Assembly: GCA_030066455.1 (NCBI GenBank)
Contig: JASJBQ010000014.1
Location: 1 to 20,251 of the forward strand
Direction of reading: 5' to 3'
Origin: Desulfobacterales bacterium
GTDB lineage: Bacteria > Desulfobacterota > Desulfobacteria > Desulfobacterales > UBA5852
DNA: 20,251 nt
Below are positions 2,127 to 18,685 of this stretch, one piece after another. Positions within the stretch are counted from its first letter, which is position 1, and each line of letters begins with the position of its first letter. Below the pieces are notes generated by a model, which saw only the letters and a list, made by a program, of their open reading frames with translations, was not told the DNA's origin and made no database searches. A program made the position numbers and the translations under genes.

Positions 2127-3059
2127 ATGCCATCACGGCTTGTCACACGACGGCTGACTGTTGTATTGGTATGGCTGTTGGTCAGCCTCCTGAGCAGCGC
2201 CGAAGCCTTCGCCCTCACGCGGGATGAACGCATCGCCCAGGCCCGCCGGGACTGGTTGGTGGGCGTGGCCACCGAAAAAAGGATTGCCGCTGATCTGGAA
2301 CGCTACCAGGCTTCCGGCCAGGCTTCGCCCGAGGTGATCCAACTCTACGAAACCTATCTGGACCGGGTTCGCCGGCTTACCGAAGAAAAGCGCCGGGTCC
2401 TGGAAGCCCTCGAAGGCCGCAGCGGTGGCGGCAGACCATCGAATATAACAGCGCGAAGTCTGCCGGGCCCGGCCGATCAACCGGCCTACGATCCCCAGAT
2501 CCCCGAGGACCGCGAGCTTGACGAAACCCGCGCGCTGGAACAGGAATTCAATCGTTCGCTGGCCGCCTTCGACGACATGCTCCTGAAAGAAATCGAGCAG
2601 TCCCGCGTCGAGTCGGATCTCAAAATGAAGCAGTTGGCCCAGGAAGCCGCCCGGGCGGCCAAATCGCTGCGCGAACAGGGGCAAATGGAGGGCAGCGAGG
2701 GCGCCGAGCAGGGTATGCAGGAGGGCCAGAGCTCGGGTGGCAGCGGGAACGAGACCGGTGAGATGCAAAACGAACGGCAGGGCCAGAACACGCAGGAGGG
2801 CGGTGCCCTGGGCGACAAGGATGCCACCGCCAGCCAGGAGGACAGCGGCCAGGGAACCGACATGGCGCAGGCCCAAAACAAGCAGGACAAGGGGATGAGC
2901 TCAGGTGAATCCGGACCGCCGGGCGATGGCGACAAGATCAACACCCAAGATGACGATATCGTCGCGCGTCAGCTGCGGGAGGCGGCGGAGAACGAAACCG
3001 ATCCGGAGCTGAAAGAAAAACTGTGGAAAGAATACCGCGATTACAAAAAAAGCATCTAG
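2127..3059 (+). CDS. Secreted acidic Gln/Gly/Glu-rich protein of unknown function
   Basis: 310 residues. I start it at ATG 2127 rather than the in-frame ATG 2073, because AGGGG at 2115-2119 is well spaced and the protein then begins with a standard signal peptide: RLVTRR, a hydrophobic run VVLVWLLVSLLSS, and a likely cut after AEA or AFA near residue 27-29. The mature part begins with a charged, probably helical region (about 30-110) that looks coiled-coil forming. A second helical stretch follows (about 150-205), then a long low-complexity segment rich in Gln, Gly, Glu and Ser (about 205-285). It ends in an ordered-looking tail with VARQLREAAENETDPELKEK and then LWKEYRDYKK. I have the impression that similar tails occur in other uncharacterised proteobacterial proteins, but this is not checked. 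It is the first gene of the cluster and likely acts in the periplasm as a scaffold or linker; no enzymatic motif is seen. Confidence 0.8.
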   Translation: MPSRLVTRRLTVVLVWLLVSLLSSAEAFALTRDERIAQARRDWLVGVATEKRIAADLERYQASGQASPEVIQLYETYLDRVRRLTEEKRRVLEALEGRSGGGRPSNITARSLPGPADQPAYDPQIPEDRELDETRALEQEFNRSLAAFDDMLLKEIEQSRVESDLKMKQLAQEAARAAKSLREQGQMEGSEGAEQGMQEGQSSGGSGNETGEMQNERQGQNTQEGGALGDKDATASQEDSGQGTDMAQAQNKQDKGMSSGESGPPGDGDKINTQDDDIVARQLREAAENETDPELKEKLWKEYRDYKKSI

Positions 3060-4333
3060 GATGTACCGGCGTCCTTGCCGGCCCGCGCCGCGGTGCGGGC
3101 CGGACACGTTTGCAAACCGCAGCGCTTGTGACGCTGACCGCATATGCGCTGACCACCATTCTGAGCGGGTGCGCCAGCCACCGTTACAGTGCCCGTGACG
3201 TCGAGCCCACCAAAATCCAGATCGCCCAGCAGGAAATCCCCGAGACCGACCTGCTCGATGTGGGGATCGTCGTCTTTCACAGCGCGGAACTGACGGAGGA
3301 AGATGTCGAAGACAAAGGCACCAACAACGAGATCCGGCAGTCCGAAGCCCACTTCATCCCCTGCCATCTGCGCAACACCCTCCAACGCAGCGCCCAGTGG
3401 GGATCGGTCCGCGTCCTGCCGGAGGAAAGTGCCACCCAGGACGTTCTGGTCAGCGGTGAGATCCTGGAGTCCAACGGCCAGGAACTGGTTTTGAAAATCA
3501 AGGCCACCGACGCCCGCGGGCGGCTCTGGTACGAAGAGACCTATCGTCAGGAAGCTTCGGGGCAATCCTACAAGGATAATATTCCTTGGGAGCAGGATGC
3601 CTACCAGGACCTCTACAATACCATCGCCAACGATCTGGCCGCCCATCGTAAAAAACTGCCGGAAGGTTCGGCCGGAAGGATTCGAGCCGTCGCCAAGCTA
3701 CAGTTCGCCCGGGAATTTTCCCCTGAAGCCTACGACGACTATCTCATCGAGAACGAGGACCAGGAAGTCACCCTCAACCGCCTGCCAGCGGACGACGACC
3801 CGCAAATGGCCCGCCTCATGGCCGTTCGCGAGCGTGACCACATGTATATTGATACGCTCAATCAGTACTACGACGGATTCTATGCCGGCATGTGGCCGGC
3901 TTACGAGAACTGGCGCAAACTGGATCTGACCGAGCGGCTAGCGCGCAAAGAGATCGAAAAATCCGCCATGCTGCGCAAAGCCGGCGGCGCGCTGCTGGTC
4001 GCCATGGCCATCCTGCTGGAAGCCACCCAGGCCGGTGCCGGCAATATGCTCCAGGGACTCATGGCGGTTTCCGGCGGTCAGGTATTCATGAGCGGCATCA
4101 ATCTGTCCAAGCAGGCGGAGATACACTCGGCGGCCATCGCCGAACTGAGTGAGTCCTTCGGCGCCGACATGGAACCGATCAACCTCGAGCTCAAGGGACA
4201 AACCTACGAGCTCTCCGGTTCGGCCCAGGAACAATACCGTCAGTGGCAGGACCTGCTGCGCAATATCTACTTGCAGGAAACCGGCTTCGGACCCGGACCT
4301 GACAGCACCCCGGATGTAAGCGTGGCGGACTGA
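3023..4333 (+). CDS. Predicted lipoprotein of unknown function with internal glycine-rich hydrophobic segment
   Basis: The frame opens at GTG 3023, overlapping the previous gene by 37 bases, and gives 436 residues. The real start is uncertain. A lipobox LSGC puts the acylated Cys at residue 50 from GTG 3023, which is long for a lipoprotein signal. TTG 3110 would put it at residue 21 but gives a signal lacking a basic n-region. No start has a strong ribosome binding site. The mature protein has an alpha/beta-looking N-terminal half (LLDVGIVVFHSAEL; DVLVSGEILESNGQELVLKI), a helical middle rich in Tyr and acidic residues, and a Gly/Ala-rich hydrophobic segment (about 318-360) that could insert in or line a membrane. 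It then has a polar C-terminus. It probably sits in the outer membrane or the periplasmic face of the inner membrane and joins the downstream kinase/channel proteins. No family recognised. Confidence 0.72.
   Translation: MERIPRLQKKHLGCTGVLAGPRRGAGRTRLQTAALVTLTAYALTTILSGCASHRYSARDVEPTKIQIAQQEIPETDLLDVGIVVFHSAELTEEDVEDKGTNNEIRQSEAHFIPCHLRNTLQRSAQWGSVRVLPEESATQDVLVSGEILESNGQELVLKIKATDARGRLWYEETYRQEASGQSYKDNIPWEQDAYQDLYNTIANDLAAHRKKLPEGSAGRIRAVAKLQFAREFSPEAYDDYLIENEDQEVTLNRLPADDDPQMARLMAVRERDHMYIDTLNQYYDGFYAGMWPAYENWRKLDLTERLARKEIEKSAMLRKAGGALLVAMAILLEATQAGAGNMLQGLMAVSGGQVFMSGINLSKQAEIHSAAIAELSESFGADMEPINLELKGQTYELSGSAQEQYRQWQDLLRNIYLQETGFGPGPDSTPDVSVAD
3078..3103. repeat. Perfect 9-bp inverted repeat at the 3023-4333 gene start
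   Basis: CCGGCCCGC at 3078-3086 is the exact reverse complement of GCGGGCCGG at 3095-3103, with an 8-base loop. It lies just after the stop of the preceding gene (3059) and before the alternative TTG start at 3110. No T-tract follows, so it is not an intrinsic terminator. It could shape translation or processing of the message, or be a by-product of GC-rich coding sequence. Confidence 0.5.
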
Positions 4334-4427
4334 AACCCCGAACCTGATCAGCGTCAACCCATCCGGCCGCCGACAAGCAGGTGCCGATGAGACCGCTTAT
4401 AAACCGTCGAGACGCCACAACCGAAGA

Positions 4428-6830
4428 ATGCCGCCTTCAGACCATTCATCTTTTCACCCTGGCCAGGTTCTCGCCGGACGTTTCAAGCTAATTGCCCCCT
4501 TGGGACGGGGTGGAATGGGCGAAGTCTGGCAGGCCCACGACCGCACGCTTGACATCCACATCGCTCTGAAACTCCTACGGCCCGAACTGGCCGCGGCCGA
4601 AGGGGCGGTGGGGTTCATGAAAAACGAATGCCGGGCCGCACGCCGTCTGACCCATCCCAACATCGTCCGCATCTACGATTTTCACCCGCATGATCATCTT
4701 TCGTTCATCTCCATGGAATGGGTCGAAGGCCCCACCTTCGATCGCTGGCCCCCTCCCCCGGGTAGCGAGGGCCTGCAGCGGGCCCGGGTGCTGAGTGCGG
4801 TGGCCGATGCCCTCGACCATATCCATCGACAGGGTTTGGTTCATCGCGATGTCAAGGCCCGCAATATCCTGATGACGCCGGAAGGGCAGCCCAAATTGAC
4901 GGACTTCGGCATTGTCGGCCTGTGGCGTTTTCAGCCGGGCATGCTGGATATCCAATCCGGCGGGTCCTATGCCAGCATGAGCCCCCAGCAGCGCCACGGC
5001 CGGCCCCCGCATCCGGCCGACGACGTCTATGCCTTTGGCGTCCTGCTGCACGATGCCCTGACCGGCCAGCTCGCGTCGGGGATACCGGGTGACGACGCCG
5101 GTGCGGCGGAAACCCAGCCCCCCGATGTCGCCTCGCCTTTACACCAGGCGACGCCGGCCGAAAGGCAATTGCTTCAACTGGCGGAGCAGATGCGTGCACC
5201 GGCGCGCAGTGACCGGCCCGCCAGCATGGACGCTGTCCGCGAAGCCATCGACGCCGCCACGGGCGCCGAACGCCAAGACACGGCGCCGCCGGACACGGAC
5301 GGAGTGACGGCGACCGATCCACCGCTAACCCTTGCCGCCGGACGCATCGCCCCGCAGCCCTATACCCCCGCAGACGAAGCCGCCGCCGGTGCGCCCCGCC
5401 AGCGCCCCGTCGTATGGACACTGGCGCTGATCATGGGGGCTCTCGGCCTGATGGCGGCCGGCCTGGCCATCATCGGTTTCTTGACCCGACCGCCCGGTCC
5501 GACAGCCGCCGTGGAAGAACCGGATCCGCGGGCTAGCGAGGCCCGACCGCCGCCCACCGCGTCCGGAGAAGCCGCCGCTCCGCCCCAATCGCCGCCGCCG
5601 GCAGACGGCGCCCTGGCGGACGCTGAAAAAAACATGGCGCTGTGGCTCCAGGCCGCCGAACAGCTCAAGGCCAACTTCGCCGGCAACTGGGCGCCGGATG
5701 AACTTGAAACCGTGGAAGCCAGGGCCAAGGCGGCGGACACGGCCATGATCGCCAAGTCCTATGGCCAGGCGGCGGAAACCTACGCCGCCGCCGTCGCGGC
5801 GGCGGAAGCCATGCTGATGGAGCGGGAACCCCGCTTTGCCGCCGCCATGGACCAGGGGACCCGCGCCCTCCAGGCGAACCGCCCGGCGCCCGCACGCCAG
5901 CATTTCGAACAGGCCCTCAAGATTAAACCGGATGACGCGGACGCCCGCAACGGCCTGGCCGCCACCGATCGGCGGGAAAAGGTGCTGGCCCTGATGGCCA
6001 CCGGGCAGGCGCATGAAATCGAGGCACGCTACGAGCTGGCCCTGGCGGACTATGAAGCCGCACTCGGTCTGGAGAGCGATTTTGTGCCGGCCCGCGCTGC
6101 GGTGGACCGCTTGAAAGACCAGGTCGCCGAAGCCCAGTACAATCGACTCGTATCCGAGGGTCTCGGTGCCTACTACGGGGGCCGGCTGAAAGAGGCCCGC
6201 AGCCGCATCCAGGCGGCGCTCCAGTATCGGCCGGCGGGCCAGGAGGCTCGCGAGGCCCTGCGGCAAATCGATACGGCCGCGCGCGAGCAGCGGATTGCCG
6301 ATCTGCGTCGCCAGGGCCAGGCGGCCGAAAGCAAGGAGCAGTGGGACCGGGCCCTCCAGGCCTACGAGAAGGCGCTGGCCATCGACTCCGCGCTCCAGTT
6401 CGCCCATCTGGGGGCCGCGCGCAGCCGCGAGCGCATCCACCTTGACAAACGCCTGCGTTACTACCTCGATCATCCGGAAGCGCTGGCCTCCGACCGCTAC
6501 CTGGCGGAAGCACAGCAGCTCCTGACTGCAGCCGAGTCCCTGGCGCCCCGGGGGCCGCGGCTGGCCGCCCAGATCCAGACCTTGAAAGCCGGTGTTCAGG
6601 CCGCCGAGACCATGGTCCCCGTAACCCTTGTGTCCGACGGCCAGACCGATGTGGCCGTCCTCCGTGTGGCCCGTTTGGGCCGCATCACCCGTCAAACCAT
6701 CGAACTGCGTCCCGGCATCTATACGATTGTCGGGGCGCGCAACGGCTACAAGGACGTTCGCCAGACCATCCGCGTCGAAGCGGATCAGCGGGCATTGCAG
6801 GTGTCGATCGCATGCAAGGAAAAGATCTGA
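4428..6830 (+). CDS. Transmembrane Hanks-type Ser/Thr protein kinase with periplasmic TPR and PEGA-like regions
   Basis: 800 residues. The cytoplasmic N-terminal kinase domain (about 18-275) has all main catalytic elements: glycine loop GRGGMGEVW (26-34), Lys48 in ALK, a likely helix-C Glu67, HRDVKARN (139-146) and DFG (159-161). It should therefore be active. The usual KPxN is KARN here. A Pro/Ala/Asp-rich linker leads to one membrane helix (about 328-352, VVWTLALIMGALGLMAAGLA). The outer part has a Pro/Ala linker, then several TPR-like helix pairs (about 410-740, for example ARQHFEQALKIKPDDADA and ALQAYEKALAIDSA). It ends with a PEGA-like beta module (about 745-797, ELRPGIYTIVGARNGYKDVR). 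This is a PknB/PpkA-like sensor kinase; it probably phosphorylates threonines read by the FHA protein three genes downstream of the next gene. The next gene starts inside its last codons. The ATG has only a weak ribosome binding site. Confidence 0.93.
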   Translation: MPPSDHSSFHPGQVLAGRFKLIAPLGRGGMGEVWQAHDRTLDIHIALKLLRPELAAAEGAVGFMKNECRAARRLTHPNIVRIYDFHPHDHLSFISMEWVEGPTFDRWPPPPGSEGLQRARVLSAVADALDHIHRQGLVHRDVKARNILMTPEGQPKLTDFGIVGLWRFQPGMLDIQSGGSYASMSPQQRHGRPPHPADDVYAFGVLLHDALTGQLASGIPGDDAGAAETQPPDVASPLHQATPAERQLLQLAEQMRAPARSDRPASMDAVREAIDAATGAERQDTAPPDTDGVTATDPPLTLAAGRIAPQPYTPADEAAAGAPRQRPVVWTLALIMGALGLMAAGLAIIGFLTRPPGPTAAVEEPDPRASEARPPPTASGEAAAPPQSPPPADGALADAEKNMALWLQAAEQLKANFAGNWAPDELETVEARAKAADTAMIAKSYGQAAETYAAAVAAAEAMLMEREPRFAAAMDQGTRALQANRPAPARQHFEQALKIKPDDADARNGLAATDRREKVLALMATGQAHEIEARYELALADYEAALGLESDFVPARAAVDRLKDQVAEAQYNRLVSEGLGAYYGGRLKEARSRIQAALQYRPAGQEAREALRQIDTAAREQRIADLRRQGQAAESKEQWDRALQAYEKALAIDSALQFAHLGAARSRERIHLDKRLRYYLDHPEALASDRYLAEAQQLLTAAESLAPRGPRLAAQIQTLKAGVQAAETMVPVTLVSDGQTDVAVLRVARLGRITRQTIELRPGIYTIVGARNGYKDVRQTIRVEADQRALQVSIACKEKI

Positions 6831-8959
6831 ACCATACCACCCCTCCCGGCGACACCACGCCGCCGGATGACGCTGGCATGACGGCCGTCAAACCGGTTGC
6901 GTTCGACCCCCCCGGTGATCGGCCGCCGGCCGGCCGGCATCGCCGGGGCCGGCTTTGGCTGGTCGCATTGGGCCTGCCGGCCGCCGTGCTGGCCGCCCTG
7001 GCCTGGTTTGTCTTCACCGCCCGCCAAATCGAGTTGGTCATCGAGCCCTCCCCGGAAGAGCTCTCGATTCAGGGCGGCCTCCTGAGACCACGGGTGGGCG
7101 GGGCCTACCTGCTGCGCCCGGGCACATATCGCCTCCGGGCCGTACGTGCCGGCTACCACGACCTCGATCGCGCGTTTGACGTCGGGGCCGATCGGCACCA
7201 AACGCTCCAATTTGCGATGGAGAAGCTGCCGGGGCGAATCAACTTGACCACCCACCGTGAGGATCACCCCGACGAGGCGGTCAGCGGCGCCGTCGTCACC
7301 ATCGACGGCGAGGTCATCGGCCACAGCCCGCTGACGGAAGCCGCGGTGCCGGCCGGAAGCCGAACGCTGCGCCTGGAGGCGCCGCTGTACAAGCCGCACC
7401 AGGAGGTCATCGCGGTGGCCGGCGCCGATGAGCTGCAGACGATGGCCTTCGGTCTGGAGCCCAACTGGGCCGATGTGCGCTTTGCAACCACCCCGCCGGA
7501 CGCCTGGGTCCAGCTGGCCGATCGCCGGCTGGGGCGTACGCCGCTGACGGCACGCGTTGAGGCCGGAGTCCATCAGGTGAAGTTCCGCCATGCGGGCTAC
7601 AAACCGACGGCCGTCAACATCCGGGTCGTCGCCGGCCAGCCCCTGGAGGTCCCCGCCGTGGCGCTCGAAAAAATCGCGGGGCGCCTGTTCGTCACCTCAC
7701 GGCCGGCGGGGGCCAATGTCACGGTCGACGATCGTTTCTACGGACAGACCCCCCTGGACCTCCCATTGCCGCCGGATCGGGACCACGTGGTGCGTATTTC
7801 CGAGCCGGGCTACAAGACCGCCCGGCACGTTGTCCGCGTGGCCGGCGGCGCCAGGGCTTCGGTGGCGGCCGATCTCGTGCCCCGCCGCGGGAAGGTGCGC
7901 TTTCGGGTGTCGCCGTCGGACGCCCGGTTGCTGCTGAATGGTCAGCCCTACGGCCCGGTGCCGGCGTCGCTGGATCTGCTGGCCGTCCCCCAACGGATTC
8001 AAATCGTCAAGGACGGCTACCGCGAATTTCGCACCCAGGTCACCCCCCGTCCCGGCCACCCCCTGCTCATCGACGCCAGGCTCAAACGGCCTTACGAAAC
8101 CGACGTGCCCGGTATCATCCAGGCCCCCAACGGCTATCGCTTGAAACTGATGCAACCCGCCGCGGTAACCTTCCAGATGGGCTCCTCCCGCCGTGAACAG
8201 GGACGACGCGCCAACGAAACCCTGCGCGAAGTCCGCCTGCGTCACCCGTTCTATATCGGTCTGAAGGAGGTCACCAACGGCCAGTTCCGCGAATTCCAGG
8301 CCGCTCACGACGCCGGCCTGTTTAAAAATTACAGTTTGAACCGGGATGCGCAGCCGGCAGCGCAGATCACCTGGGAGCAGGCCGCGGCCTTCTGCAACTG
8401 GCTGAGCCGGCGGGAGGGGCTGCCCCCCGCCTATGTCGCCAAAGGCGGCAAACTGACGCCGGTCATCCCCATGAACCATGGCTATCGCCTGCCGACCGAG
8501 GCTGAGTGGGTCTTCTGTGCCCGCATCGATGCCACCGGCCGCATCGCCAAGTATCCCTGGGGAGACAAATTTCCGCCCGCGGACAAGACCACCAACCTGG
8601 CCGACCAGAGCGCCCAAACGATCCTGCAGCTATTTCTCGAAAACTATAACGACGGTCATCCCGTGGCCGCCCCCCCGGGCAGTTTGAAACCCAATCACCG
8701 CGGGCTGTTCGATCTGGGGGGCAACGTATCCGAGTGGTGCCACGACTACTACCAAATCTATACATACGCCCAAGGCCGGGTGTATACCGATCCCAGCGGG
8801 CCGGCCGACGGCCGGCACCACGTGATCCGCGGAGGAAGCTGGAAGCAGGCGTCGCTCCAAACCCTGCGCGGCGCCTACCGCGACTACCAGGAAAAACAGC
8901 GGCTGGACTTGGGGTTCCGCATCGGCCGATATGTTCAACCAAACCGGAAGGAGTCATGA
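6812..8959 (+). CDS. Membrane-anchored PEGA-repeat protein with C-terminal SUMF1/FGE-like domain lacking the catalytic Cys pair
   Basis: 715 residues; the ATG lies 19 bases inside the kinase gene, with AGGTG at 6799-6803 as a modest ribosome binding site. A basic cytoplasmic N-terminus (RHRRGR, 42-47) precedes one membrane helix (48-70), so the rest is periplasmic. Residues about 71-430 form five PEGA-type beta modules with typical phrases such as GTYRLRAVRAGY, GVHQVKFRHAGYKP and HVVRISEPGYKT. The C-terminal domain (about 435-710) is of the SUMF1/formylglycine-generating type: FQMGSS, FYIGLKEVTNGQFREF, GYRLPTEAEW, YPWGD, GLFDLGGNVSEW, and RGGSW at 673-677. In true formylglycine-generating enzymes two copper-binding Cys follow the GGS(Y/W) motif. 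Here the same stretch reads KQASLQTLR with no Cys, so it is likely a binding or structural domain, as proposed for TagR in the type VI kinase pathway. It fits a periplasmic partner or regulator of the kinase. Confidence 0.92.
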   Translation: MQGKDLNHTTPPGDTTPPDDAGMTAVKPVAFDPPGDRPPAGRHRRGRLWLVALGLPAAVLAALAWFVFTARQIELVIEPSPEELSIQGGLLRPRVGGAYLLRPGTYRLRAVRAGYHDLDRAFDVGADRHQTLQFAMEKLPGRINLTTHREDHPDEAVSGAVVTIDGEVIGHSPLTEAAVPAGSRTLRLEAPLYKPHQEVIAVAGADELQTMAFGLEPNWADVRFATTPPDAWVQLADRRLGRTPLTARVEAGVHQVKFRHAGYKPTAVNIRVVAGQPLEVPAVALEKIAGRLFVTSRPAGANVTVDDRFYGQTPLDLPLPPDRDHVVRISEPGYKTARHVVRVAGGARASVAADLVPRRGKVRFRVSPSDARLLLNGQPYGPVPASLDLLAVPQRIQIVKDGYREFRTQVTPRPGHPLLIDARLKRPYETDVPGIIQAPNGYRLKLMQPAAVTFQMGSSRREQGRRANETLREVRLRHPFYIGLKEVTNGQFREFQAAHDAGLFKNYSLNRDAQPAAQITWEQAAAFCNWLSRREGLPPAYVAKGGKLTPVIPMNHGYRLPTEAEWVFCARIDATGRIAKYPWGDKFPPADKTTNLADQSAQTILQLFLENYNDGHPVAAPPGSLKPNHRGLFDLGGNVSEWCHDYYQIYTYAQGRVYTDPSGPADGRHHVIRGGSWKQASLQTLRGAYRDYQEKQRLDLGFRIGRYVQPNRKES

Positions 8960-9258
8960 TGCCGCCCAATCGACGAAAGTGGCTACGCTTGCTGGTGCTT
9001 GGGTTTTGGATGGCCGCCGCCGGCCCGACCCGGGCCGAAGATGCTCCCGCGAATGCTCCGGCACCCCCCGCCCGGTCGACGGAAACCGCCGGGGACGAAT
9101 CGCCGCCCGCCCGGGTCGAAAACGCACCGGACGGCCCGTCCCGGACGGCCGTAAAACCCAGCGCCCCGGCCAAAAAGGCACCGCGCGCCCGCAAGCCTTT
9201 TCGACCCTCGGAGGAAATCCACGTGGACAAAGCAGTGGATTTCCCGGCCGACATATGA
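8959..9258 (+). CDS. Small secreted Pro/Ala-rich protein of unknown function
   Basis: 99 residues. Two ATGs are possible, 8956 (overlapping the previous stop as ATGA) and 8959. I prefer 8959 because the strong GGAAGGAG at 8946-8953 is 5 bases from it but only 2 from 8956. The protein starts with a clear signal peptide: basic PNRRKW, hydrophobic LRLLVLGFWMAAAG, and a likely cut after TRA. A disordered linker follows, rich in Pro, Ala and Lys. The tail is PSEEIHVDKAVDFPADI, which looks ordered and may be a docking peptide. It is translationally coupled to the PEGA/SUMF1 gene, so the two products probably act together in the periplasm. Other frames here are longer, but only this one has the start signals and the secretion signal. 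Confidence 0.8.
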   Translation: MPPNRRKWLRLLVLGFWMAAAGPTRAEDAPANAPAPPARSTETAGDESPPARVENAPDGPSRTAVKPSAPAKKAPRARKPFRPSEEIHVDKAVDFPADI

Positions 9259-9303
9259 CACTTTAACCGGGGAACGTTTCAACCAACCTTAGCGGAAGCG
9301 CCC

Positions 9304-10107
9304 ATGAAACAGAATTTGCCCGTCTCGCTCGAATTCATCTACCAGCTCTTCGCCCTGATCGTGATCGTGATTCTGGTGCATGCCGTCTACGTGGCCGCCG
9401 TTCGACCGGCGGCCGACACCTTCCTGGCGGAGCAGGCCCAGCACGCGGCCAGCGGACAGCCCACCGAGACCGAGCAGTCGATCCCCGTCATGATCCGGGA
9501 TTACGAACAGGAGGCCTGCTTCATCCTCATGTTCTGGGCCCTGGCGATCATGGCCTACAAAGCGGTGGTCATCGTGCGCCATCGGCAACTGCTGAACACC
9601 GATCTCATTCCATTGGCCGAGGGCGTGCGCGTGCTGCCCGAAGACACCCTGGCCCTCTCCCGGCGCATCCAGGCCCTGCCCGCGCAACAGCGCGAATCGC
9701 TGCTGCCGCGTGCGCTTTTGGCCGCGCTGCAGCGTTTCAGTTCAACACGCAACATCCAGGATGTGGCCAATGCCATGCATGCCTATTGCTCCAGCGAGGG
9801 CGAACGCCTGGATGCCGAACTGGCCATGATCCGCTATATCGCCTGGGCCATTCCTTCTGTGGGCTTCATCGGCACCGTACGGGGTATCGGCCAGGCCCTG
9901 GGACACGCCCACAAAGCCCTGGAAGGCGACATCATGGAAGTCACCCGCAGCCTGGGGGTGGCGTTCAACTCCACCCTGATCGCGCTGCTCATCAGTATCG
10001 TGCTCATGTTCCTGCTTCACCAGTTGCAGCTGCTGCAGGAGCGCTATATCTTGGACACAGAAGCCTACTGCGAAGACAAGCTGACCCGCCGGCTGCACAC
10101 CCACTGA
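9304..10107 (+). CDS. MotA/TolQ/ExbB-family proton channel subunit
   Basis: 267 residues, GGAAG at 9294-9298 upstream of ATG 9304. Four membrane helices are predicted: about 10-31, 72-92, 178-198 and 218-240. A cytoplasmic loop of about 85 residues between the second and third is typical of the family. The diagnostic core is AWAIPSVGFIGTVRGIGQAL (180-199) and LGVAFNSTLIALLISI (218-233). These match the two pore-lining helices of TolQ, ExbB and MotA, and Thr191 and Thr224 are candidates for the conserved pore threonines. Such proteins form pentamers around a dimer of single-helix partners (ExbD, TolR, MotB) and pass protons or sodium to drive mechanical work. No classical ExbD or MotB is nearby. 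The two VWA proteins downstream carry an ExbD-like anchor and are the likely partners. Confidence 0.93.
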   Translation: MKQNLPVSLEFIYQLFALIVIVILVHAVYVAAVRPAADTFLAEQAQHAASGQPTETEQSIPVMIRDYEQEACFILMFWALAIMAYKAVVIVRHRQLLNTDLIPLAEGVRVLPEDTLALSRRIQALPAQQRESLLPRALLAALQRFSSTRNIQDVANAMHAYCSSEGERLDAELAMIRYIAWAIPSVGFIGTVRGIGQALGHAHKALEGDIMEVTRSLGVAFNSTLIALLISIVLMFLLHQLQLLQERYILDTEAYCEDKLTRRLHTH

Positions 10108-10116
10108 GGATGAACG

Positions 10117-11538
10117 GTGAGCCTGATCGTCCTGGAAATACACGACGGCGGCATCCTGTGCACCGACACCGAAGGCCGCCTCCAACCCACGGAAACCGAC
10201 GCGCTGGAAAGCCCTGGTTTCGCCCTGCTGCGCGGACGCGACCTTCTGGTCGGCACCCCTGCCTACCACCAGGCCCGCCGACACCCCCGCCAGACCAACT
10301 GCCGGTTCTGGGAGGCATTCGACGCCCAGCCCCTGCGCAGCCCTGAATTCGAAGGCTACAGCCACGCCGAACTGGCCTACCGGCATCTCGAAGGGGTGTG
10401 GCGGCAAATTAAGACCGATCAAGCGGAAGTGATTCTCGTCGTTCCCGATCACTACGGGGACAAGGAACTGGGACTGCTGCTGGGCATCGCATCGACGCTG
10501 GGTATGCCGATCCGCGGCCTGATATCGCAGGCCCTGGCCGGCAGCCCGCCCCAGGCCTACCCCTGGTTCGACTTTCACGTGGACCTGCACCTCCACCGGC
10601 TGGTCCTGACGGCCGTGGACGGTCGCACCCGCCCCCGCGTGTGCCGCCATGCAACCATCGTCGATCAAGGCCGGGAAGCCCTCCACCGTCAGTGGGTGCG
10701 AATGCTGGCCGATGCTTTCGTCCGCCAGACCCGGTTCGATCCGCTCTATGCGGCCGCAAGCGAGCAGACCCTGCACGACCGCCTGCCCGGCATCACCGAT
10801 GCCGAGGAACGATCGGATCCGATCCAGGTCGAAATGCAGGCCGACGGCCGAACGCACCGCATCCAGGTCGAACGCCGGGCCCTGACGGCCCCTTACGCCC
10901 CCTGGATCGCAAGTCTGGCGGCAACCGTCGCCGCCTGGCAGGAGGCGCTGTCCGCACCGCCGGAGGCTTCGCGCCTGGTGCTCACCCACCGTGCGGCGGC
11001 GCTGCCAGAATTCGCGCCGCAGTTGGAAAGCGTCACCGGTCTGAACGCCCGACGGCTGCCCGTCGGGACGGCCGCCGCCAATGCCCTGGCCTACGCCGGT
11101 CTTTTCGCCGGCGGCGACAGCGCTCACGGCGTGCCCTTGCTGAAACGCGTTCCCGGACCAGCGGCCGAGACCCCCGCAGCGGCCCCCGCCGCGACGGCGG
11201 AAGCACCGCCTGCAGCCCCCACCCATCTGGTTTATCGCGGCTGGGCCTATCCCATCACCGAGGCGCCGCTGACGGTGGGACGCGAATTTCCGGCGGACAC
11301 CCGCGGCATCCGGGTCCGAGGCCAGCTGGCCGGGATATCACGGCAGCATTTTTCCGTATGCCGCGAAAACAGCCTGGTCGTGTTGACCGACACGAGCAGC
11401 TATGGCACGCGTGTGGATGATGTCGCGGTAACGGATACGGCCGTTCTCGCGGTGGGACAGGTCATACGCATCGGTACGCCGGGCGAAACCCTGCAGGCCA
11501 TTGCCTGCCTGACGGACCATGAAACGACGATCGCTTAA
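10117..11538 (+). CDS. Hsp70/actin-like (ASKHA) domain protein with C-terminal FHA domain
   Basis: 473 residues, starting at GTG 10117 with GAGG at 10106-10109. An ATG at 10110 is in another frame. The N-terminal 330 residues resemble an ASKHA nucleotide-binding fold: a first beta strand LIVLEIHDGGILCTD, the segment EVILVVPDHYGDKELGLLLG (104-123) like the middle of Hsp70 and FtsA/PilM-type proteins, and FHVDLHLHRLVLTAV (153-167) like the second phosphate-binding region. Whether it binds ATP is unclear, since the glycine-rich loops are weak. An Ala/Pro linker (about 345-365) leads to an FHA domain (about 370-465) with the canonical residues VGRE (Gly388, Arg389), SRQH (408-411) and SSYGT (427-431), which bind phosphothreonine. 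It therefore probably reads the product of the kinase. It lies between the channel and VWA genes, and the next gene overlaps its last 20 bases. Confidence 0.87.
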   Translation: MSLIVLEIHDGGILCTDTEGRLQPTETDALESPGFALLRGRDLLVGTPAYHQARRHPRQTNCRFWEAFDAQPLRSPEFEGYSHAELAYRHLEGVWRQIKTDQAEVILVVPDHYGDKELGLLLGIASTLGMPIRGLISQALAGSPPQAYPWFDFHVDLHLHRLVLTAVDGRTRPRVCRHATIVDQGREALHRQWVRMLADAFVRQTRFDPLYAAASEQTLHDRLPGITDAEERSDPIQVEMQADGRTHRIQVERRALTAPYAPWIASLAATVAAWQEALSAPPEASRLVLTHRAAALPEFAPQLESVTGLNARRLPVGTAAANALAYAGLFAGGDSAHGVPLLKRVPGPAAETPAAAPAATAEAPPAAPTHLVYRGWAYPITEAPLTVGREFPADTRGIRVRGQLAGISRQHFSVCRENSLVVLTDTSSYGTRVDDVAVTDTAVLAVGQVIRIGTPGETLQAIACLTDHETTIA

Positions 11539-12610
11539 TGTCTTTAGCCTTTCGTTCATCGACTGCATCTGCTGCGGTCTGGGGGCCGTTATTCTGCTCT
11601 TCGTGATCGTCAACGCCAAGAGCGCGGTCCAGCGCGACTTGGTGACCCAGGACGTCAACAGCGAGGCCGAACGCATCGAGCGCCAAGTCCTGGAGGGCCG
11701 CAAACGGCTGGTGGAACTGCGCAACGCGCTCGAAACCACCGAGGCGGACATCGCCCGCACCCAGGGCGCCAGCCGCCGGATCCTCAAACGCCTTGAAGCA
11801 CGCCGCGCCGAAATCGCCCATTACGACAAGGACAACCTGGCCGAAAAAGCCCACCTGAACAAACTCAAGGCCGACGTCCGCTCACTGGAGGAGGAGGTCC
11901 GGCGCCTCAAGGCGGGCAGCCAGGCCGAGGACGACCGCGGCGACACCATCCGCACTTTTGCCGGCGAGGGCGATCGCCAATACCTGACCGATCTCAAGGT
12001 GGGCGGAAGGCGCATCTTCATTCTCGTCGACACCTCGGCCAGCATGCTGGACGACACCATCGTGGGGATCATTCGCCGGCGCAATCTGCCGCGCGACGAA
12101 AAAGTGCGCGCCCCCAAGTGGCGCCAGACCGCCGCCACGGTGGACTGGATCACGGCCCAGATGCCGGCCGAGAGCCAGTACCAGATCTACACCTTCAACG
12201 AAGCCGCCCAACCGCTGATCCCGGGAACCCGCAACCAGTGGCTGCCGGCGGCCGAGAGCAAGCGCCTGGATGCGGCCGTCAAGCGGCTCTACCAGACCGC
12301 TCCGGCCAAGAGCACCAGCCTGGCCAACGCCTTCGACGCCCTGAGCCTGATGACGCCGCCCCCGGACAATATCTTTCTGCTGACCGACGGGCTGCCCACG
12401 ATGGGCGCCGGCAAACCCTGGCGCCGCAAGGTCTCCAGCAAAAAGCGTCTGAGTCTGTTCAACGATGCCATCGAAAAACTGCCGGCCAAGGTGCCGGTCA
12501 ACGTCATCCAGTTTCCCCTGCGGGGCGATCCCATGGCCGCCAGCGCTTTCTGGCGCCTGGCCACGCACACACGCGGCAGCTATTTCTGCCCGGCGGCGGA
12601 CTGGCCCTGA
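11519..12610 (+). CDS. VWA domain protein with ExbD/TolR-like N-terminal membrane anchor (first of a tandem pair)
   Basis: 363 residues; ATG 11519 lies inside the end of the FHA gene, indicating translational coupling. The basic N-terminus MKRRS precedes one helix (about 9-32) reading FSLSFIDCICCGLGAVILLF. Asp15 sits where ExbD and TolR carry their proton-binding Asp. Residues about 40-140 form a long charged coiled coil. The VWA domain (about 160-360) has a complete metal site: DTSAS (171-175), Thr266 in KSTSLANAF and Asp290 in FLLTDG. The protein should face the periplasm and bind a partner through its metal site. Together with the MotA/TolQ/ExbB subunit it is a candidate stator-type complex. 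The N-terminal 22 residues are nearly the same as in the next gene, while the rest has diverged. Confidence 0.9.
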   Translation: MKRRSLNVFSLSFIDCICCGLGAVILLFVIVNAKSAVQRDLVTQDVNSEAERIERQVLEGRKRLVELRNALETTEADIARTQGASRRILKRLEARRAEIAHYDKDNLAEKAHLNKLKADVRSLEEEVRRLKAGSQAEDDRGDTIRTFAGEGDRQYLTDLKVGGRRIFILVDTSASMLDDTIVGIIRRRNLPRDEKVRAPKWRQTAATVDWITAQMPAESQYQIYTFNEAAQPLIPGTRNQWLPAAESKRLDAAVKRLYQTAPAKSTSLANAFDALSLMTPPPDNIFLLTDGLPTMGAGKPWRRKVSSKKRLSLFNDAIEKLPAKVPVNVIQFPLRGDPMAASAFWRLATHTRGSYFCPAADWP

Positions 12611-12622
12611 AAGGCGGCACCC

Positions 12623-13651
12623 ATGGCGCGACAACGCCGCGAAATCGAAGTCTTCAGCCTCTCCTTTCTGGACTGCATCTGCTGCGCCTTCGGCGCCATC
12701 ATCCTGCTGTTCGTCCTCTCCAAGTTCTCCGAATCGCGCGTCATCGAAAACGTGCGCACGGATCTCAAGGCCCAGATCGTCCGCATGGAGGAGGAACTGC
12801 ACGAAATCCGGGGGCAGACCGTGCTGCTCGACCGCGAACTGACCGCCAAACGCGTGGTGCAGTCCGAGGCGCGCCAGAAACTGGCCCGGCTTCAGGGGGA
12901 TCTCACGGCCATCGAAGGCGAGTTTGCCGCCTCCCGCGACGACGCCGAGGTCCAGAACATCATCGAAGGCCGCATGGCCCGCGCCCTGCAGACGCTCACC
13001 GAGGAGATGAAGCGACTTTCCCAGGCCCCGCGCAAGCGCATCGACCGCAGCGTGGGCGGCATCCCCGTAGACAGCGAATACATCATCTTCATCATCGACA
13101 CCTCGGGGAGCATGCAGCGCGCCGCCTGGGTGACGGTCCAGAACAAGATCCGCGAAACCCTCGATATCTACCCCAAGGTCAAGGGCATCCAGGTCTTAAA
13201 CGACATGGGCGAGTACATGTTCCCCTATTACCGGGGCAAATGGATTCCCGACACGGCACGTTTCCGCAACCGGATCCTCGACACCCTCAAGACCTGGTTC
13301 CCCTTCAGCAACAGCAGCCCGGTGGAAGGCATCACCGAGGCCATCCGGACCTATTACGACCCCGGGCTGCGCATCAGCCTCTATGTGTTCGGAGACGAGT
13401 ACAGCGGCAGGAACATGCAGGGGGCCATCGAGGCGGTCGATCGCATCAACCGGACGGATAAAAAAGGCCGCCGCCTGGTCCGGATCCACGCCGTCGGCTT
13501 TCCCACCGTTCTGGACGACCCGCGGGGCATCACCGGCCTGCGTTTCGCCACCCTTATGCGGGCTCTGTGCGAGCGCAACGGCGGGGCGTTCGTCGGTCTC
13601 AACCAATCGAGCGGGTTGGGTTCCACCCGCGGGTTCCGCATCCGCTTCTGA
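12623..13651 (+). CDS. VWA domain protein with ExbD/TolR-like N-terminal membrane anchor (second of a tandem pair)
   Basis: 342 residues, 12 bases after the previous stop, with AAGG at 12611-12614. The anchor is VFSLSFLDCICCAFGAIILL (10-29), with Asp17 matching Asp15 of the neighbour and the same Cys-x-Cys-Cys. A coiled coil of about 100 residues follows (about 35-130). The VWA domain (about 145-340) has DTSGS (159-163) and a likely metal-site Asp258 in VFGDEYSG. The expected Thr position reads NSSPVEGIT, so the metal site is less canonical than in the neighbour. The two proteins probably arose by duplication and may form a heterodimer inside the channel pentamer. It is the last gene of the cluster, and a hairpin follows immediately after its stop. 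Confidence 0.9.
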   Translation: MARQRREIEVFSLSFLDCICCAFGAIILLFVLSKFSESRVIENVRTDLKAQIVRMEEELHEIRGQTVLLDRELTAKRVVQSEARQKLARLQGDLTAIEGEFAASRDDAEVQNIIEGRMARALQTLTEEMKRLSQAPRKRIDRSVGGIPVDSEYIIFIIDTSGSMQRAAWVTVQNKIRETLDIYPKVKGIQVLNDMGEYMFPYYRGKWIPDTARFRNRILDTLKTWFPFSNSSPVEGITEAIRTYYDPGLRISLYVFGDEYSGRNMQGAIEAVDRINRTDKKGRRLVRIHAVGFPTVLDDPRGITGLRFATLMRALCERNGGAFVGLNQSSGLGSTRGFRIRF

Positions 13652-13727: not shown

Positions 13728-14384
13728 TCACCCCATCAGCCCGATGGAATACGCGATCTGAAACTGGCCCAGGTAATAGAGCGGAAGCCCGACCAGGCGA
13801 TTGTAGAAAGACGCGTGCACAAAGCGCTGCCGAGCAACGAAAAGATCGGAAAGGTAGAAGGCCAGCGCCCCGTTGATGACCAGCAGACGGCCGGTGACGG
13901 AAAAGTCGGCCGCACCGCACAGGGCGCCGGCCGCAATGAGCATGAGGGTGATGACCACGACATACCCCATTACGGGGTGACGCATGCCGTCGAGATAAGG
14001 CAGCAGACGCGCATACACGAAGGTGCTCACCGGAATGGCCGCAATGGCCGTCATCCACATGGCCGTTCCGGGGCGGGCCAGCATGCCAAAGGCCACGATA
14101 TAACCCACATGCCCCAGAAGAAAAGCCACCAGGCCGATGCGAAATGCGGTTTGGCCCGGTACCGCCAGGGCCACATCCCCAACGAGGCATAGCGTCAGCC
14201 CGCTGATGACGGCGAGGGCATAACGCGGATCCAGAGCCGTCTGGACGAGTGCCAGAATGATAAAAAGGGACGAGAGCAGAAATTTAAAACCGATTTTGAA
14301 TCGGGTCGCGCCTTTTTTTTCACTCAGCAGCAATGCCGCCAGAATAAAGGGCGCCCCCAAAAGGATGAAGCCTTGCGGCGTCAT
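13728..14384 (-). CDS. YhhN (lysoplasmalogenase) family membrane protein
   Basis: 218 residues. I start it at the ATG at 14384, because AGGAG (14394-14390) is 5 bases upstream; an ATG six codons earlier has no such site. The protein has about seven to eight hydrophobic helices. It shows family signatures: a GLTLCLVGDVALAVPG segment with the conserved Gly-Asp, FRIGLVAFLLGHVGYI, a later GALAFYLSDLFVA with its conserved Ser-Asp, and YYLGQFQIAYS at the end. Characterised members, such as human TMEM86B, cleave the vinyl-ether bond of lysoplasmalogens. Anaerobes of this kind may make plasmalogens, so the role is plausible but substrate use is not proven. It is the last gene of a minus-strand set after the acyltransferase, with a 92-base gap. 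Confidence 0.85.
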   Translation of the reverse strand: MTPQGFILLGAPFILAALLLSEKKGATRFKIGFKFLLSSLFIILALVQTALDPRYALAVISGLTLCLVGDVALAVPGQTAFRIGLVAFLLGHVGYIVAFGMLARPGTAMWMTAIAAIPVSTFVYARLLPYLDGMRHPVMGYVVVITLMLIAAGALCGAADFSVTGRLLVINGALAFYLSDLFVARQRFVHASFYNRLVGLPLYYLGQFQIAYSIGLMG

Positions 14385-14476
14385 GCCGTCTCCTGTTGGC
14401 ATCCGGGGTCCGAATACGGCATCCGCGCCACAATTGCGGTCACGGTCGCCATGAAGGCCGCCGGCTGTCCGGGTGG

Positions 14477-15220
14477 TCAGCCATGGGGGGTGCGCTCCAG
14501 TCCGGATGCAATGCTCTGGCGCACGCGGTCGGCCAGTTCGTTGATATTTCCGCGCGCATAGCCTTCGATGTCGATGGGTGCGTGAATGGTCATGGTCGCC
14601 CGTCCGGGAAAGAGGTCAAGCGTGTCCGAGGGCAGGATCTCGCGCGTCCCGTTGATGGTAACAGGCAGCAAGGGCAACTGCAGGTCGAGGGCGAAGTGAA
14701 ACGCCCCTCGCTTGAAATCTCTCAGCCGGCCGTCGCGGCTGCGGGTGCCTTCCGGAAAGAAAAGCACCGAGGTGCCGCGGGTGATCCGGGACTTGGCCGC
14801 CTCGATGGACTTCAGGGCCCCTTCCCGGTTCGAGCGGTCCACGTAGATGTGGCCCAGTTTGTCACAGGCGATACCGATGACGGGGATGTTGCGCAACTCC
14901 TGCTTCATCACCCATTTGAAGTCGATGTCCAGCCAGCCGTAGAGCACGAAAATATCGTACTGACTCTGGTGGTTGCAGACGACAACGTAGGATTGCGCCG
15001 GGTCGATATGGTGCCGGCCTTCGACCCTGACCAGCATGGGCGTAAACCAGCTGTTGATCCGTGCCCAACTCCGGGCGAAAAGACGGGCCAGGGTGGCGGG
15101 CGGTACGAACCACACCAGGGCTACGACCGACATGCCGCAAATAAAGGTGGAAATCCCCAGAACGGGAATTATCACCAGCCACTTGTAAATGCTGTAAAGG
15201 TACCTGAGGTATCGGTTCAC
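14477..15220 (-). CDS. plsC: 1-acyl-sn-glycerol-3-phosphate acyltransferase (PlsC family)
   Basis: 247 residues from GTG 15220. I choose this start because AAGGA (15233-15229) is 8 bases upstream of it. The nearby ATG at 15229 begins on the last A of that site and cannot use it, and an ATG at 15292 adds an unlikely Arg/Cys-rich extension. An N-terminal membrane segment (about 15-40) is followed by the acyltransferase domain, with NHQSQYD (His84, Asp89: the HX4D catalytic pair) and FFPEGTRS (154-161, PEGTR for the acceptor phosphate). GRLRDFKRGAFHFALD and PLLPVTINGT are also typical. The enzyme acylates lysophosphatidic acid to phosphatidic acid at the inner membrane. Specificity for another lysophospholipid is possible given the neighbouring lysoplasmalogenase-family gene. 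Confidence 0.92.
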   Translation of the reverse strand: MNRYLRYLYSIYKWLVIIPVLGISTFICGMSVVALVWFVPPATLARLFARSWARINSWFTPMLVRVEGRHHIDPAQSYVVVCNHQSQYDIFVLYGWLDIDFKWVMKQELRNIPVIGIACDKLGHIYVDRSNREGALKSIEAAKSRITRGTSVLFFPEGTRSRDGRLRDFKRGAFHFALDLQLPLLPVTINGTREILPSDTLDLFPGRATMTIHAPIDIEGYARGNINELADRVRQSIASGLERTPHG

Positions 15221-15319
15221 GGGATGCATCCTTCGTTTGGCGCGCCTGTGACCCACCCAGCGCCAACGGCACGGTGCGCATTCAGTCGCCACCGGCTGTC
15301 GTCTGCCGGACGGCCGCCG

Positions 15320-16630
15320 TCAAAGCCGCCAGTAGCGGATCCCTAGCTTTTCGGCCTCACCGGGGTCGAAAACGGCCTTGATATCGAGCAGCAGACGGTA
15401 GGCCGGGTTGAACATGTCCACCAGCGCGTCCAGGCCGCCTTTGGCGTAGGCGTCATGGCCGACCGCCAGAATGGCAGCGTCCGCATGGCGAACCTGGGAC
15501 CGGCTGACCAACTGGATACCGTAGTAACGCTGGGCCTCCGCCGGGTCCGCCAGGGGATCGTGCACCAGAACGTCCATGCCGTAATCCTGAAGCTCTTTGA
15601 CGATGTCCACCACGCGGGTATTGCGCAGGTCGGGAACGTTTTCCTTAAAGGTCAGCCCCAGGACGACCACCGTGGCCCCGCGCACCTGCCGCTCACCCCT
15701 GATCAGGAGTTTGACCGTCTTCTCGGCCACATATTTGCCCATGCCGTCGTTGATGCGGCGCCCGGCCACGATCATGTCCGGGTGATAGCCGATCGACTCG
15801 GCCTTGTAGGTCAAATAATACGGATCGACGCCAATGCAGTGCCCCCCGACCAGACCGGGGTGGAAATTGAGAAAATTCCACTTGGTGCCCGCCGCCGCCA
15901 GAACGTCGCGGGTGTCGATCCCCAGCCGGTCGAAGATCATGGCCAGCTCGTTCATCAGGGCGATATTCAGGTCGCGCTGGGTGTTCTCGATAACCTTGGC
16001 CGCCTCGGCCACCCGAATCGAGGGCGCCTGATGAATGCCGGCCGACACCACCCGGCCGTAGACGGCGGCCAGCAATCGGGTGGTCGCGGCGTCGGAGCCC
16101 GAAACGATCTTGACGATCCTGTCCAGCGTGTGGACCTTGTCGCCGGGATTGATGCGCTCCGGTGAATAGCCGACCGTGAAGTCGCTTCCGAACGCCAGGC
16201 CCGACTGCGCTTCGAGGATCGGCACGCAGACCTCTTCCGTGGCCCCGGGATAGACCGTGGATTCGAAGACCACGCAGCTGCCACGCGCGATGTGATCGCC
16301 CACCGACCGCGAGGCGCCCTTCAACGGCCCCAGGTCCGGGATCCGCGATTCGTCGATCGGCGTCGGCACGGCCACGATGATGAGCCGGCATTCGGCCAGC
16401 GCCTCGGCGTCGGCACTGAATTGGATATCCACGGTCCGAAGGTCCTCGGCCGCCACTTCGAGGGTGCGGTCGCGGCCGTCGCGCAGTTCGGCCACCCGCT
16501 CGGCGTTTAAGTCAAACCCCACCACGTCGAAATGGCGGGCCAGGTGCACGGCCAGGGGCAGGCCGACATACCCCAGCCCGACCACCGCGATACGGTCCTG
16601 TCGTGTGTCCAGCGATTCGATGGTCAGCAT
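15320..16630 (-). CDS. UDP-N-acetylhexosamine 6-dehydrogenase (TviB/WbpO-type nucleotide-sugar dehydrogenase)
   Basis: 436 residues, about the usual family length. It oxidises the C6 hydroxyl of a UDP-N-acetylated hexosamine to the uronic acid with NAD, for O-antigen, capsule or other envelope glycans. The N-terminal Rossmann domain has IAVVGLGYVGLPLA (14-27, with GxGxxG). VPTPID, ESTVYPGATEE, VGYSPERINPGDKVHT and KVIENTQRDLNIALMNE are typical of the TviB/WbpO/VipA branch. AGTKWNFLNFHPGLVGG precedes HCIGVDPYYLTYKAES, where Cys265 is the catalytic nucleophile. LGLTFKENVPDLRNTRVVD marks the C-terminal UDP-binding domain. AAAGGAG lies 12 bases before the ATG, which is a long spacing. No other sugar genes are in the window, so the glycan is unknown. 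UDP-GalNAc or UDP-GlcNAc is the likely substrate; UDP-glucose is less likely. Confidence 0.92.
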   Translation of the reverse strand: MLTIESLDTRQDRIAVVGLGYVGLPLAVHLARHFDVVGFDLNAERVAELRDGRDRTLEVAAEDLRTVDIQFSADAEALAECRLIIVAVPTPIDESRIPDLGPLKGASRSVGDHIARGSCVVFESTVYPGATEEVCVPILEAQSGLAFGSDFTVGYSPERINPGDKVHTLDRIVKIVSGSDAATTRLLAAVYGRVVSAGIHQAPSIRVAEAAKVIENTQRDLNIALMNELAMIFDRLGIDTRDVLAAAGTKWNFLNFHPGLVGGHCIGVDPYYLTYKAESIGYHPDMIVAGRRINDGMGKYVAEKTVKLLIRGERQVRGATVVVLGLTFKENVPDLRNTRVVDIVKELQDYGMDVLVHDPLADPAEAQRYYGIQLVSRSQVRHADAAILAVGHDAYAKGGLDALVDMFNPAYRLLLDIKAVFDPGEAEKLGIRYWRL

Positions 16631-17068: not shown

Positions 17069-18082
17069 ATGAAGAAACTGCTTTCGACCGTTGCCGTTTT
17101 ACTGCTGCCCGCACTGCTCCTGACCGTGGCACCGGCCGTCCATGCCGCCGATTCGCCCATCAAGCTGACCTACAGCATCTTTTTCCCACCCTCCCACGGC
17201 CAGTGCCAGGCGGCCGTAGCCTGGGCCGAAGAGATCGGCAAACGCACCAACGGTCGGGTGCAGATCCAGGTTTTTCCGGCCGGCACCCTGACCAAGGCCA
17301 AACAATGCTACGACGGCGTCGTCAACGGCATTTCCGACATCGGCATGTCGGTGTTTGCCTACACGCGGGGCCGGTTCCCGGTCATGGAGGCGCTGGACCT
17401 GCCGCTGGGCTATCCCAGCGGCCTGGTGGCCACGCGCGCGGCCAACGCCTTCTATGGCAAGTTCCAGCCCAAGGAACTGGCGCAGGTCAAACTGCTCTAC
17501 CTGCACGCCCACGGCCCCGGCCTGCTGCACACCAAACGTCCGGTCAAGACCATGGCGGACATGGCGGGTATGAAAATCCGCTCCACCGGTCTGAGCGCCA
17601 AGATCGTTGAAAAGCTCGGCGGCGTCCCGGTGGCCATGCCCCAGCCTTCAACCTACGAAGCCCTGCAAAAAGGGGTCGTCGAAGGCACCTTCGGGCCGAT
17701 CGAGGTGCTCAAGGGCTGGAAGCAGGGCGAGGTGATCCAATCCACAACCGACTGCCGCGGCGTAGGCTACACCACTGCCATGTTCGTGGTCATGAACCGC
17801 GGCAAATGGGATAAACTGCCCGCCGACGTCCAGGCGGTCTTCACGGAAGTAAGCCGGGAATACATCGACGTCCACGGCCGCACCTGGGACCAAAACGACG
17901 AAGAAGGCCTGGCCTTCACCTTGAGCCGCGGCAACCAGGTGATCCCGCTGTCGGAAGCGGAGAGTGCCCAATGGAAGGGCGCTGTGCAGCCGATCATTGA
18001 CAATTATGTCCAGTCCGCTAAAAGCAAGGGGTTGGCGGGCGACGATTACATCCAGACGCTCCGGGGATTGATCACCCGCTAA
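17069..18082 (+). CDS. dctP: TRAP transporter periplasmic solute-binding protein (DctP family)
   Basis: 337 residues with a strong AAGGAGG site. A signal peptide (MKKLL, hydrophobic run, cut after VHA at residue 26) exports it to the periplasm, where it captures an organic acid for the membrane subunits. Family signs include [13 protein letters not shown] near the mature N-terminus, [19 protein letters not shown] and [20 protein letters not shown]. In the segment [10 protein letters not shown], Arg171 matches the Arg that usually salt-bridges the ligand carboxylate. [20 protein letters not shown] is also typical. The ligand cannot be told from sequence alone; the TRAP family commonly binds C4-dicarboxylates, sugar acids, 2-oxo acids, or aromatic or amino acid-type anions. 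It is the first gene of a dctPQM operon. Confidence 0.95.
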
Positions 18083-18113
18083 AATCGAAGACCTTCCGGC
18101 ACCAGGAGAATTG

Positions 18114-18602: not shown

Positions 18603-18610
18603 AACCTGAT

Positions 18611-18626
18611 CCCCGATCTAACGGGG
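18611..18626. repeat. Short hairpin in the dctQ-dctM spacer
   Basis: CCCCG at 18611-18615 pairs with CGGGG at 18622-18626 around a 6-base loop, and one further T-A pair (18610/18627) extends it. No T-tract follows. It may affect message stability or relative expression between the two genes. Confidence 0.3.
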
Positions 18627-18685
18627 ACCATTCAAACCGGCGTCATCCGGTCCGGATGGCGCCGTTGTTGTGGAAAGCGATTCGC

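Follow-up and report, generated by a model that had tools for sequence, protein, structure and literature searches.

Membrane motors of the MotA/TolQ/ExbB type power flagella, nutrient uptake, division, and gliding. Here, we review a nine-gene cassette built around a channel subunit of this type in a Desulfobacterales bacterium (GenBank assembly GCA_030066455.1, contig JASJBQ010000014.1), where it spans positions 2127..13651 of the 20,251-nucleotide stretch that was analyzed, hereafter called the window. The cassette probably specifies a 5:2-type motor that sits in the inner membrane and is driven by ions; a pair of VWA proteins would serve as its axle, and regulators would have been added to it.

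The nearest described systems are the TPH-vWA/TolQ-like motors, presented in section 8 and in the Fig. 4c,d legend of PMC12204202 (Mol Biol Evol 2025). That section reports tolQ homologues that lack a neighboring tolR or exbD and are accompanied by VWA genes "in heterologous pairs", an Asp-bearing pore helix, and an AlphaFold 3 model that places the VWA pair in a TolQ-like pentamer with the Asp facing the threonine ring; more systems of the MotA/TolQ/ExbB type are said there to await discovery. The cassette shares the TolQ-like gene, the absence of tolR and exbD, the two unlike VWA genes, and the Asp pore helix, and both kinds of locus occur in Proteobacteria and Verrucomicrobia. The likeness is one of description, and PEGA, FGE/SUMF1, kinase, and the other cassette genes are unmentioned in the main-text passages on these motors. 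The first-pass annotation of the window had called the cassette undescribed. This no longer holds for the core of a TolQ-like subunit with paired VWA proteins, which is already in print as a prediction in those passages, but it stands for the full cassette, of which the open-licence PubMed Central literature (closed papers and preprints lie outside its scope) gave no description. Nor did that literature yield a lipoprotein with a FlgT/PelC/CsgG/TolB-N-like domain, a protein joining an Hsp70-type nucleotide-binding domain to FHA, a small secreted protein with FPxDI or a close variant at its end, or a sister system in which FHA and PP2C genes occur. The part of PMC12505986 that was covered makes no mention of VWA.

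Other known machines resemble the cassette in part. The TolQ-TolR-TolA/TolB-Pal system has the same channel fold and threonines, and the TolB N-terminal domain resembles the first domain of gene 2; in the cassette, however, VWA proteins replace TolR, and no TolA, Pal, or TolB propeller was found in the nine genes. The Myxococcus gliding motor AglRQS also combines a single channel protein with two unlike axle-type proteins, but PMC9389320, in the passages that deal with it, presents AglQ and AglS as homologues of MotB, whereas the cassette partners are VWA proteins for which MotB homology is unsupported. GldKLMN of type IX secretion likewise sets an FGE-domain envelope protein beside a proton-driven motor, but the GldK score of the cassette is far under the cut-off and its channel belongs to the MotA_ExbB family.

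Gene Layout and Conservation of the Cassette

The cassette comprises nine open reading frames on the plus strand, with tight or overlapping spacing:

Gene 1, 2127..3059, plus strand: secreted protein, variable for the most part, whose C-terminal segment (DDDIVARQLREAAENETDPELKEKLWKEYRDYK, about 2949-3050) is conserved
Gene 2, 3023..4333, plus strand: predicted lipoprotein, start codon uncertain, with a domain of the FlgT/PqiC/PelC/CsgG/TolB-N type (about 3203-3673) followed by a long helical hairpin
Gene 3, 4428..6830, plus strand: Hanks-type kinase domain (about 4470-5282), transmembrane helix (residues 334-352), TPRs, and PEGA-like C-terminus (Pfam)
Gene 4, 6812..8959, plus strand: single transmembrane helix, four PEGA stretches, and an FGE/SUMF1 domain
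Gene 5, 8956..9258, plus strand: small secreted protein with a variable linker and a conserved C-terminal tail (about 9199-9255) terminating in FPADI-stop
Gene 6, 9304..10107, plus strand: MotA/TolQ/ExbB-type channel subunit with pore threonines T191 (9874) and T224 (9973) (Pfam)
Gene 7, 10117..11538, plus strand: Hsp70-type nucleotide-binding domain (10117-11118) fused to FHA (11272-11475)
Gene 8 (VWA1), 11519..12610, plus strand: transmembrane "transpore" helix with Asp15 (11561-11563), coiled coil, and VWA domain (Pfam)
Gene 9 (VWA2), 12623..13651, plus strand: transmembrane helix with Asp17 (12671-12673), coiled coil, and VWA-like domain (family alignment)

An alignment of gene 9 compared with 84,980 species genomes gave at least 531 confirmed relatives, the best 80 of which were taken as loci; the core counts refer to the 52 of these 80 that contain both gene 2 and gene 9. 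Order and strand are the same in 51/52 loci, and the exception, L043, has all nine genes in two divergent blocks. Genes 3, 4, 6, and 8 are each found in 52/52 loci, so that genes 8 and 9 are always present together, while gene 5 is found in 51/52, gene 7 in 45/52, and gene 1 in 41/52; in all 11 loci without gene 1, gene 2 sits at the edge of the sequence examined. No conserved tenth gene was seen, the widest flanking cluster being shared by 8/80 loci, with at least 3 kb of downstream sequence present in 62/80. Two loci assigned to Verrucomicrobia (L037) and Kiritimatiellaeota (L068) carry genes 6-9 only, preceded by 7 kb of other genes, and may represent a minimal form.

By their record titles, the loci belong to Desulfobacterales, Gammaproteobacteria, Acidobacteriota, Planctomycetota, and others, some being metagenome-assembled genomes that are possibly mis-binned; Methylophaga and other Gammaproteobacteria are among the matches listed in the protein search for relatives, and Idiomarina is not. 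The nearest relatives of the window are Desulfobacterales loci from metagenome-assembled genomes (gene 9 is 92% identical to that of L008), and a quick FastTree phylogeny with long branches and title-based groups, which proves no transfer, groups the window with Desulfobacterales. A separate observation concerns L010 (8160-10999), which has no gene 2 and is excluded from the counts, and L092: in this one genome, genes 7 (partial, with runs of N), 8, and 9 lie beside a division gene cluster and genes 4-7 lie elsewhere, a split due to either rearrangement or an assembly fault.

Channel Subunit and VWA Pair

Gene 6 matches the Pfam family MotA_ExbB with 54.3 bits (cut-off 22.9). T191 and T224 are kept in 68/68 gene 6 sequences and align by motif (GT, and a later T) with the two conserved threonines of ExbB-like proteins from the same genomes. 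The residue beside the first pore threonine, R193 (9880-9882), is Arg in 68/68 sequences and mostly Trp in the ExbB/TolQ-like proteins of the hosts.

In six genomes, MotA_ExbB gave 26 matches, 6 in cassettes and 20 outside them. An ExbD or MotB_plug match adjoins, within about 1 kb, 0/6 cassette channel genes as opposed to 17/20 of the non-cassette matches. The place of such a partner appears to be taken by the VWA proteins, both of which begin with an Arg-rich stretch followed by a single transmembrane helix, SF[LI]D....G.GA. The helix Asp is present in 77/77 intact gene 8 N-termini and 80/80 intact gene 9 N-termini, the window included, once the incomplete N-termini, three for gene 8 and one for gene 9, are set aside. 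Position +4 relative to the Asp is Cys in nearly all rows, the exceptions being two of gene 9 (L054 and L080), and a CxCC.xGA motif lies within both VWA pore helices (11561-11610 and 12671-12720).

VWA domains with metal sites are often binding modules, and the pore region of gene 6 departs from that of TolQ and ExbB, with GTVRGI in place of the GTVWGI of most ExbB-like proteins in the hosts. The channel subunit and VWA proteins could therefore form a sensing or assembly scaffold that performs no mechanical work, ion flow being absent or a by-product. We consider this quite unlikely, since neither the two pore threonines nor the two Asp residues vary in the sequences examined, which is hard to square with a bare scaffold. 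The view of the first-pass annotation that the VWA pair is the partner of the MotA/TolQ/ExbB-type subunit, kept as a unit, is borne out by the Asp, by the co-occurrence, and by the lack of ExbD or MotB beside the channel, and the motor-plus-VWA reading appears right in outline.

Envelope Proteins and the Hsp70-Like Protein

The alpha/beta domain of gene 2 fits the envelope-protein fold of CsgG, PelC, FlgT, and the TolB N-terminal domain, and resembles envelope lipoproteins and ring components, with PelC, CsgG, and FlgT-like proteins among its best fold matches. A Pfam search assigned no family to gene 1, whose product has a hydrophobic segment at its N-terminus; LW.EY is present in 41/41 homologues. 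Gene 5 ends in [FYL]P.[DN]I in 63/63 homologues and in FP.DI in 59 of these. Gene 7 has the nucleotide-binding domain fold of Hsp70/DnaK, but unlike DnaK it contains no substrate-binding domain, its remaining residues being a linker and FHA, and its second phosphate-binding region does not resemble the DnaK motif.

The envelope genes bear on a second explanation, in which the output is export or surface motility comparable to type IX secretion or the Myxococcus gliding machines. It draws on GldK, to which the gene 4 FGE domain comes nearest and which is the best NCBIfam match of gene 4 (105.4 bits), on the ring-forming fold matches of gene 2, and on the pairing of AglR with the unlike partners AglQ and AglS as a precedent (PMC9389320). 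This output seems unlikely to us: the GldK score lies under the cut-off of 350, and flanking genes common to at most 8/80 loci link no dedicated cargo gene to the cassette. No other type IX secretion NCBIfam model matched any of the nine cassette proteins, and membership in that system was rejected on the GldK score.

Points Against the Motor Reading and Searches of Whole Genomes

Several observations weigh against the reading as a motor with a VWA axle. The VWA helix gave only 0.5-5.7% probability against ExbD and MotB in hhalign, where a control transmembrane segment gave 8% and ExbD against MotB only 47%, and ten VWA N-termini gave no match to Pfam ExbD or MotB_plug. Homology of the helix to ExbD/MotB was dropped on these results, and because it is unsupported, the axle reading rests on the Asp and its context. 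A partner is likewise lacking for 3/20 channel matches outside cassettes, namely a single gene in G004 and two matches in G003 that are weak and partial. The fold match of gene 2 is moderate, with no Foldseek hit at E 0.001, and a lipobox is not evident in several of its Acidobacteria homologues. Genes 1-5 are not essential everywhere, as L037 and L068 keep just genes 6-9. Finally, the 80 loci were located through two peptide patterns, and one of these covers part of the VWA helix sequence; the search was therefore redone by profile in whole genomes.

In these searches, whose counts include the center genome itself, gene 9 was found in 10/185 genomes from the class of L030 (Gammaproteobacteria by title), in 3/198 from the phylum of L032 (Desulfosarcina), and in 2/199 from the phylum of L027 (Phycisphaerales). 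Among the same 185 genomes, the gene 6 profile matched 15, of which 12, at E < 1e-70, are the 10 genomes with gene 9 together with G290 and G301, whose short contigs end after gene 8. The gene 2 profile matched 11, namely the 10 genomes with gene 9 and G301. Each of the 10 genomes with gene 9 thus has genes 6 and 2, and in none of the 185 does gene 2 occur without gene 6. Gene 6 is single-copy in 14/14 genomes. Ten loci picked by profile, nine from the class of L030 and one from the phylum of L032, contain the same cassette up to the contig ends, except that L125 and L127 have no gene 5 match, five lack a gene 7 in the cassette, and in L122 gene 9 precedes gene 6; the helix Asp is present in 20/20 of their VWA proteins. 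The nine consecutive same-strand genes of the first-pass annotation are accordingly real, with order and strand common to 51/52 loci, and its proviso that the homologues should co-occur in other genomes agrees with both samples (51/52 loci, and 10/10 genomes with genes 9, 6, and 2).

Such scattered occurrence, together with a MotA-like channel and a membrane partner, recalls anti-phage defense systems of the Zorya kind. PADLOC returned only a marginal ZorA match for gene 6 (13.5 bits, E 0.0067), generic kinase matches, and no Zorya partner or effector; a defense system was rejected on this result, and we regard the explanation as very improbable.

A Sister System

The surroundings of five genes that match gene 6 more weakly (E 1e-26 to 1e-31) were examined as L131-L135. 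FHA and PP2C genes adjoin the channel gene in 4/5:

L131, 7048-16949: VWA protein with the Asp helix SALDLFASA.GAFILI, trypsin-FHA fusion, and a kinase fused to PEGA, the only kinase within the stretches examined
L132, 4125-8816: VWA protein with the same Asp helix and trypsin-FHA fusion
L133, 2984-9525: coiled-coil protein that carries such an Asp helix and gave no match to VWA in Pfam, and a separate VWA-FHA gene
L135, 205-2722: incomplete stretch

L134 has none of the sister-system genes. The sister channel proteins score 96-109 bits with the gene 6 profile, compared with at most 24 for the ordinary ExbB-like proteins of the hosts. Phospho-signalling genes have joined this motor branch in more than one form.

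Kinase, FHA, and the Question of Gating

A kinase domain is found in 24/52 cassette loci (23 as a fusion with gene 3, one separately) and in 2/8 of the profile-picked loci having gene 3. FHA was detected in 35/52 loci. Kinase and FHA are thus accessories, present in some loci and absent from others. The first-pass annotation proposed that the gene 3 kinase phosphorylates a partner and that the FHA domain of gene 7 reads the mark, so that the motor is switched. The kinase motifs of the window are intact, gene 7 is present in 24/24 kinase-bearing loci as against 21/28 others (p 0.011, relatedness ignored), and FHA and PP2C genes flank a MotA-like gene in four of the five sister loci, with a kinase-PEGA gene in one. 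Yet 16 of the 28 kinase-less loci have FHA, the association of the two domains (19/24 versus 16/28) is not significant (Fisher p 0.14), and gene 7 itself is absent in 7/52 loci. The motifs are often missing as well: among 26 kinase open reading frames of the 80 loci, regular expressions for HRD and DFG matched 14 and 13, and among 51 FHA open reading frames those for S.xH and NG[TS] matched 30 and 6. On these counts, a universal kinase/FHA switch was rejected and gating is not supported as a general mechanism; we think it unlikely that the machine is phospho-gated, and the gating reading would be lineage-specific at best.

Proposed Mechanism

In the motor that we favor, gene 6 would form a pentameric channel, and genes 8 and 9 would encode an obligate pair of unlike axle proteins, each placing one helix in the pore. 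The Asp of each helix may bind a proton or sodium, and the helix would be followed by the coiled coil and a periplasmic VWA head. Ion flow could then turn or tilt the axle, and the VWA heads would pass force to the gene 2 lipoprotein and to the tails that are conserved in genes 1 and 5, with genes 3 and 4 as membrane-anchored periplasmic scaffolds (TPR, PEGA, FGE). Two parts are putative added regulators: gene 7, with its cytoplasmic Hsp70-like product, and the gene 3 kinase domain, the latter in some lineages. Our best guess for the output is force on the outer membrane.

A fuller reading, which we offer tentatively and would not call probable, is that the cassette represents a distinct class of trans-envelope machine. 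Around an obligate unlike-VWA axle, the VWA metal sites would grip short acidic tails, namely those of gene 1 and the FPxDI end of gene 5, and thereby pull an outer-membrane ring of gene 2 lipoproteins; the cytoplasmic Hsp70-type ATPase domain would act as a clutch, and in the sister lineage a motor of this kind would be coupled to a switch made of phosphatase and FHA.

Neighboring Genes

The cassette is flanked in the window by the following genes, of which the dehydrogenase and the transporter are ordinary:

PEP-utilising enzyme, 37-1674: upstream neighbor of the cassette
YhhN-family gene, 13728-14402, minus strand: directly downstream, on the opposite strand
Acyltransferase gene, 14477-15292, minus strand: downstream of the YhhN-family gene
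UDP-glucose/GDP-mannose dehydrogenase, 15320-16630, minus strand
TRAP transporter (DctP, DctQ, DctM), 17069-19987, plus strand

Significance

With this analysis, one system of the MotA/TolQ/ExbB type gains a full parts list, in which core parts are separated from optional ones. The proposed motor also makes clear predictions, which concern a pair of Asp residues, the two metal sites of the VWA proteins, and a single C-terminal tail that is invariant.

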